Source of the DNA: Alphaproteobacteria bacterium
Lineage (GTDB): Bacteria > Pseudomonadota > Alphaproteobacteria > Thalassobaculales > Thalassobaculaceae
NCBI GenBank assembly: GCA_024742605.1
Contig: JANSYC010000034.1
Coordinates: forward strand, 1-39,893
Direction: 5' to 3'
DNA length: 39,893 nucleotides
Shown in pieces: positions 16,237-20,283 of the stretch. The stretch's first letter is position 1. Every line of letters begins with the position of its first letter. The notes under the pieces are model-generated. The model saw nothing but the letters and a program-made list of their open reading frames with translations. It made no database searches and was not told where the DNA came from. Both the position numbers and the translations under genes were made by a program.

Positions 16237-16842
16237 CTATCCGTGATTCCAGTTGTTCGGATCGTCGCTCTCGCCGGGGGACAGGCCGAGGATGTCGCCT
16301 TCGGTGTTGACCCCCAGGCCGAGAACCGTGCGGTTTGCGTAGGAGAAATAGGCGGTGACCTGATTGATCTCCAGGATCTCGCCGTCGCTCCATCCGGCCG
16401 CTCTCATCGTCTCTATCATATCGTGGGACACGCCCGCGGGGTCGCGGGTCAGTGCTTCGGCATAGCGCAGCGCACTGAGATCCTTGGCGTCGAATTCGGT
16501 GTCTGCGGCCGCCCCTTCAAACGCGTTTCGGATCGCGTTGGCCCGGCCGTCGTCGCCGAGCAATCGGCGCAGGCCCTGGAAGTGATGTTCCACGCAATAG
16601 GCACAGCCGTTCAGCACGCTCACCAGAACGCCGATGGTTTCCAGGAACGCCTTTGGAACCGTATTGGCCGAATGATGCAGGACATACTTGTACAGATGCA
16701 TGTGCCCTTCCATCGAGTGCGGACGGAGCGAATGGGCCATCATGATGTTGTCGACATTTCCACCAGGGCCAACAATGCGGTCGTAGAGAACCTTCAACCG
16801 ACCCTCGGCTTGTTCGTATGGGATGGTCTCTATCCAAGGCAT
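16237..16842 (-). CDS. AhpD-like / carboxymuconolactone decarboxylase family protein
   Basis: A 201-residue all-helical member of the AhpD-like superfamily (peroxidase-related subgroup). The redox motif C-x2-C-x3-H is NGCAYCVEHH, with Cys80, Cys83 and a histidine at 86-87. It starts MPWIETIPYEQAEGRLKVLY. Members act in peroxide reduction or as thiol-disulfide partners; no specific role is shown. The first 26 residues closely match a broken gene fragment at 17719-17802, so a second copy once existed just upstream. Start at ATG 16842. Confidence 0.82.
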   Translation of the reverse strand: MPWIETIPYEQAEGRLKVLYDRIVGPGGNVDNIMMAHSLRPHSMEGHMHLYKYVLHHSANTVPKAFLETIGVLVSVLNGCAYCVEHHFQGLRRLLGDDGRANAIRNAFEGAAADTEFDAKDLSALRYAEALTRDPAGVSHDMIETMRAAGWSDGEILEINQVTAYFSYANRTVLGLGVNTEGDILGLSPGESDDPNNWNHG

Positions 16843-17151
16843 TGGCGGGCACTCTCTCTGTTTTCGAACACGGTAGATGACCTTCAAGGCAAGGTCACTA
16901 AAGCGTATTCCTAAGGTCATTCAGTTGCACTGTCGGCAGAGATTTCTGAGCGGGATCATGACCTGGGCACAGTCACTAGGTTCAGCTTTAGCCCGGTGAG
17001 GGTGAACAGCCCTTGGATCGATTCTTGGTTGTCATCTGGTTGGCGGCTGGCGGAGCTTTGCGAAGCGAGGGGGTTCAGGTAAGTTCATTTTGAAAGAGCG
17101 AGCCGCTCGCAGCTTCATAAACATGCACGAAAACATGGTGTTCGGATTATC
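16843..17151. other. Intergenic stretch before the PAS gene (left flank of island)
   Basis: About 310 bp without a supported gene. It is less GC-rich than its surroundings and contains the near-palindrome GCGAGCCGCTCGC at 17098-17110, just upstream of the PAS gene's GTG. I looked for terminal inverted repeats, target-site duplications or transposase remnants and saw none that I could support. It should contain promoters for both divergent genes. Confidence 0.4.
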
Positions 17152-17694
17152 GTGAACTTGAACCTTCATGATGCGCTCGCTCTCTTGATGCCAGAGACGG
17201 CGCCACGGCTGCTTAAAGATTTCGCGACGGTCTGGCTTGGCAAACGCGGCTCAAGGTCCATGCCCACATTCCAGGATCTCGACCCCTTAGATATGCCTTG
17301 GGCTCTCAACAACATTTTCGTCTTACGGCGCAGGGATGATGGCCTCTTTGCCTACCAACTCGTGGGCGAGGGTATGACGACGCGCATGGGCGGAAGACTC
17401 AAGAACAAGACAGCTTTCGATGTGTTCGAGGATAGTTATGCGGAATGGACCGAGGCACGATGGCAGAAGGCGGCTACCGAACGCTCTGCTTGCTTCGTCC
17501 ATACGCAACACCTAACGGCAGCTGGTATTCCCCTTAACGCGGAGCGGTTGATGTTCCCGCTACAAGGAGATGGCGATCGGGTCGACTCGTTGATTGGTGT
17601 CACTGAGTTTAGTGGGCGGGTGAGCCAGTTGCGCCCGGGGGACGGACACGTGGATTTTCTTGAAATCATCTGGACCCCAGTGGACCAACTTTGA
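17152..17694 (+). CDS. PAS_5-domain protein
   Basis: A 180-residue protein matching the alphaproteobacterial PAS_5 pattern (PF07310). It has a short helix, 'P...LDPLDMPWALNNIFVLRR', then FAYQLVGEGMTTRMGGRLKNK and a closing strand (LMFPLQGDGDRVDSLIGVTEF). There is no output domain, so it would act as a stand-alone sensor or partner protein; ligand unknown. The start is a GTG; a nearby upstream ATG (17135) is out of frame. Its coding sequence uses many A/T-ending codons and looks less GC-rich than its neighbours. It also abuts a truncated AhpD-like gene, which suggests arrival by transfer or rearrangement. Confidence 0.72.
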   Translation: MNLNLHDALALLMPETAPRLLKDFATVWLGKRGSRSMPTFQDLDPLDMPWALNNIFVLRRRDDGLFAYQLVGEGMTTRMGGRLKNKTAFDVFEDSYAEWTEARWQKAATERSACFVHTQHLTAAGIPLNAERLMFPLQGDGDRVDSLIGVTEFSGRVSQLRPGDGHVDFLEIIWTPVDQL

Positions 17695-17718
17695 ATGCCG
17701 TGCCTTGCCAAACCGTCG

Positions 17719-17802
17719 GTTGTTCGCTCCCTTGACCCGGTCGTAGAGCGTCTTCAGTCGGACCTCGGCATCCTCGTAGGGAATGGTCGTGATCCAGGTC
17801 AT
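17719..17802 (-). pseudogene. 5' remnant of a second AhpD-like gene
   Basis: Twenty-eight codons reading MTWITTIPYEDAEVRLKTLY then DRVKGANNR closely match the start of the intact AhpD-like protein at 16237-16842 (MPWIETIPYEQAEGRLKVLY). After NNR, where family members continue 'VDNIM', the similarity stops. The frame then runs into sequence antisense to the end of the PAS gene, finally stopping at 17560. The ATG at 17802 overlaps the stop of the methyltransferase gene upstream (ATGA), so the lost gene had been translationally coupled to it. The remainder, including the Cys-x2-Cys site, is gone from this place. Confidence 0.8.
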
Positions 17803-18800
17803 GGGCGGGCTCCGGGAGAGGCGTCGTGCAGAACGGCATCGAGGTCTGGAAACCCGTAAGTGCCCGGTGCGCGGATCGTAAGGCGATGGGCCAGCTTGGC
17901 GGCCCCCAGCCGCGCTCTGAAACGATGATCCTGTCTCTCGCGTTCGGCAAGGGCCTCCGGAGTGAAGGGACCGCTCAGCCCGGCGGTGCGCGCCAATGCT
18001 TCAAGATCGGCCGGCGCGATCGCCGCCGGCTCGTCCGGTTCCCGGCAGGTCAGCAGAAGCCCGAACTCCATGTCACCGGGGGCTGTGGGCCAGAAACCGG
18101 AGCACTGGATATCGAGCATCCCGAGATCCGCGACACCTGTCATCAGGCGGATCAACGAGACTGGCGTGAAGGTGCTGCAATGGGTGTCGATATAGGCCGC
18201 GCGTGAGGTGGACACCCGGGCTTTCTCAAGCCCGAAGCCGTCCGAATGGTTCGGAAGGCGCGGCAGATCGGCAGGGATGGCGGTCCCGGACCACAGCGGT
18301 TCCGGATCGGCCTGTCGGGCCACGCTGAAATGCTCGAAAACATGGCGGGCGGCGGGCCGGTCCCGGACTTCCAGATAGCCCTCGACCCAGTCGGAAAGCT
18401 CGGTCCGGCGGCGCATCACATCGAAGGTGAACCGCATGTCCGGCACGACCAGAAAGACCGCGCCCGTTGAGGTCAGCAATCTGGAGACCTGCCGGAGCCA
18501 GCCGATCGGGTTCGGCAGATGCTCGAACACATGGGACGCCACGACCAGATCGAACCGGTCGCCCGCATCTGCGATCGGGCTCAGATCGTTGTCTGGAATC
18601 ACGTAACGGATTTGCGGAATTCCGGCCGTGTCGACATCCGGATTTCCGGCATATTTCTCAGCCAACTCGGCGTTTGACGCATGGTCGAGATAGCTGACAT
18701 CTGCGTCCGCCCCGGTCACCATCGGGCGGTCCAAAGGACCGAACTCAAGCACGCGCGTCTGTGCGCTCAGCAGGTTCTGAATGCAGGAGCGGCGATCCAT
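17799..18800 (-). CDS. SAM-dependent methyltransferase
   Basis: A 333-residue class I methyltransferase. The SAM-binding strand and loop are RVLEFGPLDRPM (a variant of the usual GxGxG), followed by VSYLDHAS, and later FDLVVASHVFEHLPNPIGWLRQVSRLL, typical of the Methyltransf_11/23 type. The second half (HVFEHFSVARQADPEPLW onwards) is not recognisable. Such proteins often act on sugars or cell-surface polymers, but no neighbour shows this. It starts 7 bp after the stop of the CusF-like gene, and its stop overlaps the start of the broken AhpD-like gene, so this was a three-gene operon. Confidence 0.75.
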   Translation of the reverse strand: MDRRSCIQNLLSAQTRVLEFGPLDRPMVTGADADVSYLDHASNAELAEKYAGNPDVDTAGIPQIRYVIPDNDLSPIADAGDRFDLVVASHVFEHLPNPIGWLRQVSRLLTSTGAVFLVVPDMRFTFDVMRRRTELSDWVEGYLEVRDRPAARHVFEHFSVARQADPEPLWSGTAIPADLPRLPNHSDGFGLEKARVSTSRAAYIDTHCSTFTPVSLIRLMTGVADLGMLDIQCSGFWPTAPGDMEFGLLLTCREPDEPAAIAPADLEALARTAGLSGPFTPEALAERERQDHRFRARLGAAKLAHRLTIRAPGTYGFPDLDAVLHDASPGARP

Positions 18801-18807
18801 AACCGAA

Positions 18808-19140
18808 TTAGGACCCGGAATTCGACGAAATCTCGGTGATCACCATATCGTGGCCACGCAGCTTGAAAGTGACCGCCTGACCTTCCTTCAGGTCTTCAAG
18901 CAGCTTCGGATCCGCAACAGTGAAGCCCATCACCATCGCGTCCATCATGTCCCCTATCGGTTCATGATCGATGACCACCTGATCACGGTCCGGCAGCACC
19001 GCCACGATCGTGCCCTCGCCCTCCATCGCCATCATCTGGGCGACCGGACGGGAATCGGTGGACTGGTCTGCTGCTGACGCCGACAGGTGGACCCCGTTGG
19101 CGGCCAGCACAATACAAGCAACGCGAATGACCTGGTTCAT
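18808..19140 (-). CDS. Periplasmic CusF-like copper-binding protein
   Basis: A 110-residue protein with a signal peptide (VIRVACIVLAANGVHLSASA-A, cut near residue 23) and a small beta-barrel like CusF: GEGTIVAVLPDRDQVVIDHEPIG, then MDAMVMGFTVADPKLLEDLKEGQAVTFKLRG. The methionines of MDAMVMGF and the histidine of IDHEPI occupy the places of the copper ligands in CusF, although the tryptophan that caps copper in E. coli CusF is absent. It probably binds Cu(I)/Ag(I) in the periplasm. No CusCBA efflux genes or CopA are next to it. GGAGAA precedes the ATG at 19140. Confidence 0.75.
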   Translation of the reverse strand: MNQVIRVACIVLAANGVHLSASAADQSTDSRPVAQMMAMEGEGTIVAVLPDRDQVVIDHEPIGDMMDAMVMGFTVADPKLLEDLKEGQAVTFKLRGHDMVITEISSNSGS

Positions 19141-19213: not shown

Positions 19214-20248
19214 TCAGCCCAGGGGCATCGGCCACGTGTCGCCGAGGCGATAGCCGTCGGGCCAGGGGTCGGCTGGGTCCAGCATGTGCTGATGGACGCC
19301 GGTGATCCAAGCGCGGCCCGCGATACTGGGGATGATCGCGGGGTGTCCGAGGATGGTGGTTGCCTGTTCGATGCGACCCTCGAAAAGGCTGTCGATGATC
19401 GACTCCGCGATCAGCGTTTGCCCTGGCTTCATCTGGCCGCGGGCATGCAGGACGGCCATGCGGGCGCTGAGCCCGGTACCGGTGGGAGATCGATCCACCT
19501 TGCCCGGCTTGACCACGACCGCATTGCGCCCGATCTGTCGGCCGTCGCGGGTCTCGATGGGAAGAGCGAACTGGCAGAACGAGACATGGTTCCAGTCCGG
19601 ATTCTCCGGATGGACAAAACCCACCTGTTCGGTTGCCGCGCTTGAGATCCTGTCTCCCAGTTCGGCAAGATCCTTTGCTTCGTCCGGCCGAAGCGCGAAC
19701 CCGAGTGCCTTGGCGTCGACGATCACGAAACTGTCCCCGCCATAGGCGGTATCGGCCGTCAGGGTTCCAAACCCGGTGATTTCAAGGCGCACGCCCAGTC
19801 GGTCGGCGAAGGACGGCACATTCCGGACCGTGATCCGTTCGGCCTTGCCGTCTCGGCAGTCGGCACGGACCGACACCAGCCCGCCCGGCGCCTCCAGGTC
19901 GAACTCGGTGACCGGCTCAATCATCGGGACAATCCCACTGTCCAGCAGCACCGTCGCCACGCAGATCGAATTGGACCCCGACATCGGCGGGGTATCCGCC
20001 GGCTCCATGATGATGAAGCCCATTGCGGCGCGGGGATCTTTCGGCGGAACCAGCAGGTTCACGTGCCGGAACACGCCGCCGCGCGGTTCGTTCAGGACGA
20101 AATTGCGCAGGGTCTGGTCCTGCGCGATCCACCGGGACTGCTCCCAAAGCGTGGCCCCGGGTGGGGGCGCCACGCCGCCGACGATGACGTCGCCGACCTC
20201 ACCCTCGGCATGACAGCTGACGACATGAATGGTCTTCGTCGTGCGCAT
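19214..20248 (-). CDS. Proline racemase-family protein (hydroxyproline dehydratase/epimerase-like)
   Basis: A 344-residue member of the proline racemase superfamily. The family needs two catalytic residues on opposite faces of the substrate. Here the first site reads [10 protein letters not shown] (Ser90 in place of Cys) and the second DRSPTGTG (Thr256 in place of Cys). Cys/Cys enzymes are racemases or epimerases, and Thr at the second site is known from trans-3-hydroxy-L-proline dehydratases. The Ser/Thr pair here makes racemase activity unlikely. The ATG at 20248 has GAGGA upstream. It lies 35 bp downstream of a DMT transporter on the same strand, suggesting uptake or export of its substrate or product. 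Confidence 0.8.
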
Positions 20249-20283
20249 GCAGTCCTCACTCTTTCCGAACAACCGCTCTCGAT

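Follow-up and report, generated by a model that had tools for sequence, protein, structure and literature searches.

A foreign-looking PAS_5 gene beside a severed AhpD start: the apparent footprint of a one-sided DNA integration in two sister alphaproteobacterial species

Within a 39,893-nucleotide stretch of an alphaproteobacterial genome (hereafter the window), foreign-looking DNA carrying a PAS_5 gene, a small gene of the sensor type, adjoins the severed start of an AhpD-like gene, as a sequence-only reading of the stretch had proposed in calling it an island. The intact AhpD-like gene on the other side (AhpD1) looks like a mosaic of a divergent 5' part and a 3' part that is probably the remainder of the severed resident gene. 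The account that we prefer, and to which we give an even chance, is that a foreign tract, made up of the PAS_5 gene plus a different AhpD's 5' part, entered the resident AhpD by homology-facilitated illegitimate recombination (HFIR) and was later shared between two species. The locus would then be a natural, readable footprint of an apparent one-sided DNA integration, consisting of a stub, a foreign gene and a hybrid gene, which can be checked against a sister species. Events of this kind can account for small insertion-deletions and promoter swaps across bacterial genomes, and what looks like a duplicated, destroyed gene may instead be a single gene that recombined and survived. This is ordinary bacterial DNA acquisition by known recombination and no new system, with an anatomy more intricate than the sequence-only reading had described.

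The window corresponds to contig C35 in a 187-contig genome of 4.47 Mb (G000). Its locus was compared with that of a sister species (G001), an uncultured Rhodospirillaceae MAG that is 87% complete and fragmented, on a contig (CALAHL010000917.1) that ends inside AhpD1. These two genomes constitute the genus sample; the family sample holds 36 genomes, and the order sample is that one family. The gene order AhpD1, PAS_5, stub, methyltransferase is common to both genomes (Table 1), and past the methyltransferase the G001 locus continues with a proline-racemase family gene, EamA and SDR. The same order in G001 shows that the layout is not confined to a single genome, and with the locus found in a second assembly a misassembly is unlikely. 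Scanning positions 16800-17860 for promoters and terminators yielded no consensus promoter and no terminator, and neither Rfam nor tRNA searches across the window gave a match.

Table 1. Features of the AhpD/PAS_5 locus in the window.
Feature	Position	Strand	Basis or remark
AhpD1, intact AhpD-like gene, 201 codons + stop	16842-16237	-	TIGR01926 match
AhpD1 codons 1 to ~80, putative donor-derived 5' part	16603..16842	-	dS + third-position excess
Break in AhpD1 (codon 67-86)	16585-16642		max-chi2, free cut
AhpD1 codons ~81 to 201 + stop, putative resident (vertical) 3' part	16237..16602	-	
Non-coding stretch AhpD1/PAS_5, presumed divergent promoter region	16843..17151	.	
PAS_5 single-domain protein gene, 180 aa	17152..17694	+	Pfam PF07310
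Junction zone, PAS_5 stop to stub	17695..17724	.	58 bp shorter than G001
Stub, first ~26 codons of resident AhpD, pseudogene	17725..17802	-	
SAM-dependent methyltransferase	17799..18800	-	Pfam Methyltransf_23; 84% aa in G001, same place

Read on the minus strand from 17802 to 17719, the stub gives MTWITTIPYEDAEVRLKTLYDRVKGANN, for comparison with the intact AhpD1 start, MPWIETIPYEQAEGRLKVLYDRIVGPGG. A whole-genome tblastn search with AhpD1 recovered it (E 6.9e-5, 67% identity over 27 residues), and the likeness between the two at the DNA level takes the form of a 48-nt direct repeat at 77%; judged from these alignments, the match to AhpD is not a chance one. The stub had been described as 28 codons (17719-17802) matching the AhpD start. 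Its existence is confirmed, but the homology is certain to about codon 26 only (range ~26-28), the window's final two stub codons falling at a 58-bp length difference relative to G001 (alignment gap at 17725). The 58-bp stretch concerned, which lies between stub and PAS_5 in G001 only (L085:1375-1440), was perhaps lost from the window by slippage; an imperfect GAGCxxACA repeat flanks the length difference. Taken with its flanks, this piece is single copy in G001 and has no match in G000. Past codon ~26-28 the AhpD homology passes into the 3' flank of PAS_5 in both species, as at a non-homologous join.

The stub ATG and the methyltransferase stop overlap as ATGA, just as had been noted from the letters, and the G001 counterpart reads GTGA. 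This start/stop overlap presumably coupled translation of the resident AhpD to that of the methyltransferase. The earlier idea that an operon had been cut holds for the methyltransferase-coupled AhpD 5' end, which was cut off, but not for CusF as an original member; CusF has no match in the G001 genome and matches in 2 of the 36 family genomes. The G001 stub, with its GTG start, is one base shorter than that of the window and carries an early frameshift, and the stub is therefore a pseudogene. The same PAS gene and short reading frame in a relative had been named as evidence against a broken gene: PAS gene and stub do recur in G001, but the 80-codon open frame of the window stub is not kept there and does not represent a conserved protein. 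The stub is a pseudogene in decay, and the insertion is found beyond the window genome too.

A DNA alignment of the two AhpD N-termini, which the sequence-only reading had suggested, gave 68% identity between the window stub and AhpD1 over 75 nt, but the stub is closer, at 71-81%, to the AhpD of 16 of 18 family loci, the remaining two being L074 (60%) and L073 (52%). This 75-nt comparison used 18 close family orthologues, omitting seven distant (L075-L081) and three partial or remote sequences (L082-L084). The first 75 nt of AhpD1 are 59-67% identical to 17 of the 18 orthologues and 53% to L073. The G001 stub behaves in the same direction, more weakly, with 62-74% to the same 16 loci and 62% to AhpD1. 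In its residues the stub is of the family type (MTW...KTLYDRVKG), AhpD1 reading MPW...KVLYDRIVG. That the stub is nearer to the AhpD of other genera than to AhpD1 is no more than suggestive of a resident, family-type start, as a fast-evolving AhpD1 start could produce the same closeness. Window stub aside, none of the 36 family genomes has more than one AhpD match of ~60% identity or more, and some also have an AhpD paralogue at 38-45%. On this comparison the stub is probably not the start of a second AhpD gene.

Compared with the sister species, AhpD1 looks like two parts. Between window and G001, its codons 1-80 are 95% identical with a dS of 0.174, and codons 81-171 have a dS of 0.613 that resembles those of the flanking genes (methyltransferase 0.66, racemase-family gene 0.64, EamA 0.43, SDR 0.46). 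Maximum chi-square analysis set the break at codon 79 for all differences (permutation p 0.0004) and at codon 67 for synonymous differences only (p 0.018). Expressed as pS, the halves differ as 9/58 vs 28/67 in the species pair (ratio 0.37) and as 0.34 vs 0.41 among seven core orthologues (ratio 0.82). The third-position excess, that is, mismatch to the seven orthologues beyond those orthologues' mutual mismatch, was 0.215 for codons 1-80 of the window AhpD1 vs 0.048 for codons 81-201 (p 0.0008). A free cut search put the break of the window copy at codon 86 (p 0.005) and that of the G001 copy, which is ended by the contig, at codon 75 (p 0.08). Among the control orthologues in this search, 5/7 had no break at 0.05 and 2/7 had one (L057 at codon 41, p 0.003, and more weakly L056 at codon 164, p 0.035). 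L057 (G048:C33) belongs to another genus, and over codons 21-40, up to its own third-position divergence break, it is 87% identical to AhpD1 of this genus vs 75-77% to two sequences of its own.

Plain identity to 34 relatives is low in the AhpD1 5' half but within the range of the others, and the mean 5'-minus-3' identity is 0.040 for AhpD1, with 0.027 the lowest among the sequences compared. GC3 of the halves differs in the expected direction, not significantly (p 0.07). In the 5' tree AhpD1 stays within the family and the genus joins L057 at 98/98, the ordinary grouping of L057 with its own genus not being rejected (AU p 0.20); in the 3' tree three g12 sequences stand together, and a grouping of this genus (g1) with L057 is rejected (AU p 0.007). 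We regard these trees as suggestive, not decisive. The break falls at the CxxC motif (residues 80-83), which makes homologous exchange in this conserved block plausible. AhpD1 is under purifying selection (omega 0.15) and scores 87.8 bits on TIGR01926, over the curated cut-off of 81.8. Compared with the peroxidase-related enzymes of that family (AhpD / carboxymuconolactone decarboxylase superfamily), with which it shares the CxxC motif, AhpD1 differs in being an apparently mosaic gene whose 5' part and upstream region seem to have been replaced.

The low divergence of codons 1-80 extends across the PAS_5 gene, which is intact in G001 (92% aa, dS 0.146) and evolves under purifying selection (omega 0.27, p 0.0004). 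In synonymous differences PAS_5 does not depart from AhpD1 codons 1-80 (p 0.66) but does depart from the AhpD1 3' part (p 1e-5), the methyltransferase (Fisher p 4e-10) and EamA (EamA2; Fisher p 4e-5). In the non-coding stretch, 16843-16934 is 92% identical to G001 and 16935-17151 is 81.5% identical (JC 0.21, 0.15-0.29), a value close to that of the stub (JC 0.22, 0.12-0.36). Three other PAS_5 orthologue pairs gave dS of 0.65, 0.69 and 0.45. Two other genes with low dS (0.11 and 0.25) occurred in a small sample with wrong-frame rows mixed in, from which low-omega rows were taken as genes by eye and PAS_5 by coordinates; one ordinary intergenic stretch in the vicinity shows conservation as well (JC 0.14). 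From these divergences, the tract at ~16.6-17.8 kb, stub included, seems younger between the species than its surroundings.

The PAS_5 protein reaches 54.6 bits on PF07310, over the curated cut-off of 22. Its GC of 0.556 is low for the neighbourhood, as the sequence-only reading had pointed out, but is only the fifth lowest among the 16 compared of the 28 PAS_5 matches in G000 (range 0.493-0.714), and a lone lower-GC PAS_5 gene is unremarkable in this genome. The sliding GC over the locus does fall as anticipated, from ~0.63 to 0.52-0.57 over roughly 16.6-17.7 kb, but the drop starts inside AhpD1, not at the AhpD1 start. A studied single-domain PAS_5 protein is MopJ of Caulobacter crescentus (PMC4432633). 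The protein encoded here resembles it in its single PAS domain and in a match that spans most of the 164 positions of the NCBIfam MopJ equivalog model, and differs in scoring 25.6 bits, below the model's cut-off of 200. No title on this PAS_5 gene family appeared in the small part of the literature looked over for PF07310/Rhodospirillales. Outside the genus the nearest PAS_5 is at 47%, and at E 1e-25 the protein was found in 3/385 evenly drawn class genomes, its own genome counted; a genome-contig search confined to close relatives gave one match, the sister MAG.

The searches bear on the suggestion that the PAS_5 gene is cargo of a small mobile unit, which would have inserted into AhpD as an element of its own. 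The 28 PAS_5 matches in G000 are in keeping with it, and the following results speak against it. A DNA search of G000 revealed no second copy of the PAS_5 DNA, and no transposase or recombinase was present among ten locus proteins scanned with Pfam. No sequence is common to this site and 15 other PAS_5 loci of G000. Searches of plasmids and phages gave no related protein at E 1e-5, and viral contigs contained no pattern match. In G001, three further PAS_5 genes have collinear surroundings. Repeats at the island ends, which had been proposed as a check, amount to short imperfect ones, the only kind seen there apart from the AhpD repeat; an example is a 19-nt inverted pair at 79% (16948-16966 / 17794-17812) that is absent from the pairs listed for G001. 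A mobile element would also leave the divergent AhpD1 start unexplained, and we consider it very improbable.

Under the preferred account, the resident AhpD-like gene would once have lain directly downstream of the methyltransferase gene and overlapped it. A linear fragment from a putative donor, in which PAS_5 stood divergently upstream of a related AhpD, would have entered in a single event. On one side a homologous crossover may have occurred inside AhpD near the CxxC region, at codons ~67-86; on the other, a non-homologous join at resident codon ~27 would have dropped roughly 40-60 resident codons. The stub stops at codon ~27, and sequence of the resident type seems to pick up again at ~80. 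What results would be a hybrid AhpD whose start and upstream region come from the donor and whose 3' end is resident, together with the donor's PAS_5 gene and a dead stub linked to the methyltransferase. AhpD would thereby have been translationally uncoupled from the methyltransferase and have acquired an upstream region of its own, with the hybrid enzyme and the PAS_5 protein presumably both in use. The composite would later have been exchanged between the two species, in whichever direction, or homogenised across them after their split, and the stub would then have decayed separately in each. The need for this extra later exchange, imposed by the low dS of the tract, counts against the account.

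One study (PMC3240628) describes HFIR in Acinetobacter baylyi, Streptococcus pneumoniae and Pseudomonas stutzeri as a process with one homologous and one illegitimate end, with inserts and with deletions of ~1 kb on average, and with microhomology of 3-10 bp at the illegitimate junction in most cases. HFIR is further characterised by RecA dependence and the uptake of linear DNA. The present locus is alike in having one end apparently inside homology and the other non-homologous, with ~1.1 kb gained and an apparent loss of resident sequence. It differs in that the deletion would be ~0.12-0.18 kb against ~1 kb on average, and in being read from a sequence fossil in an uncultured lineage. A donor with PAS_5 adjoining AhpD was sought and none was found, nor was a pre-event genome. 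No PAS_5 lies beside AhpD in 11 AhpD loci outside the genus (tblastn 1e-5, at which distant ones would escape), and Pfam identified none among ten upstream neighbour ORFs of AhpD in relatives, four of which had no Pfam match and are in some cases probably spurious.

Among the other explanations, the strongest keeps the sequence-only view that a second, separate AhpD was destroyed: of two tandem paralogues, insertion and deletion would have left only the start of the methyltransferase-linked copy, AhpD1 having always been separate. The stub and AhpD1 do share I7, found in 2/18 family orthologues, and E13, found in 0/18, and the 75-nt tree does not reject stubs plus AhpD1 as one clade (AU p 0.225). 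Set against this are the family-type stub, the mosaic appearance of AhpD1 and the low copy number of AhpD in all 36 family genomes. The scheme also requires duplication, insertion, deletion and exchange together, and leaves unexplained why AhpD1 diverges more from relatives at third positions in its 5' than in its 3' part. We think it doubtful, though worth keeping in mind, together with its corollary that the uneven divergence of AhpD1 reflects a separate exchange between species. The simpler variant raised earlier, a deletion between tandem copies, would on reasoning be expected to leave one fused gene and not a stub with PAS_5 between.

Two further explanations seem quite unlikely to us. 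One is a single crossover of a circular molecule carrying a partial AhpD and PAS_5, followed by deletion. Such integration was common in an E. coli study (PMC3240628), where most of 60 integrants were partial duplications from single crossovers and only the remaining 4 HFIR; however, it should leave a stub reaching at least codon ~80 together with the circle backbone, both of which would need later deletion, and no plasmid relative of PAS_5 turned up at E 1e-5. The other takes the layout as old and vertical, ancestral to the genus, with local constraint lowering dS in PAS_5 and the AhpD1 start. The identical layout in both species, the two other low-dS genes, the conserved intergenic stretch nearby and the somewhat slower 5' part of AhpD in relatives are all compatible with this. 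However, the pS ratio of the halves is far lower between the species than among those relatives, constraint ought not to raise the divergence of the same codons from relatives, and the non-functional stub is low in divergence as well.

Around the locus, a CusF-like gene (18808-19140) lies between the methyltransferase and the racemase-family gene in the window and is absent from the G001 locus, where the methyltransferase and racemase-family reading frames overlap slightly. The racemase-family gene (19214-20272) matches the NCBIfam trans-3-hydroxy-L-proline dehydratase model at 633 bits vs a cut-off of 550. Relatives of the methyltransferase outside the genus reach at most 41% identity. Around four homologues of the methyltransferase (L086, L099, L101, L103), tblastn with AhpD1 at 1e-5 detected no AhpD in the flanking sequence retrieved, and the surroundings of the remaining homologues were covered to 1.5 kb. 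Of the four, L101 (G001:C450) is a second methyltransferase homologue of G001, 45% identical; G000 has, besides the window methyltransferase, much weaker matches only.

We also considered whether one-sided recombination recurrently uses the conserved AhpD core (codons ~30-90, including the CxxC block) as its anchor, with fragments repeatedly swapping the AhpD start and promoter there and bringing in neighbours such as PAS_5. One of the seven control orthologues, L057, also has a 5' break at codon 41, which points this way; both the anchor and the repeated swapping remain long shots. In related genera AhpD lies near other genes (loci L087, L088, L089, L090 and L091), DUF1203 among them in two loci. 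Because two such neighbour genes sit off C35 in G000, AhpD or its surroundings have probably moved.
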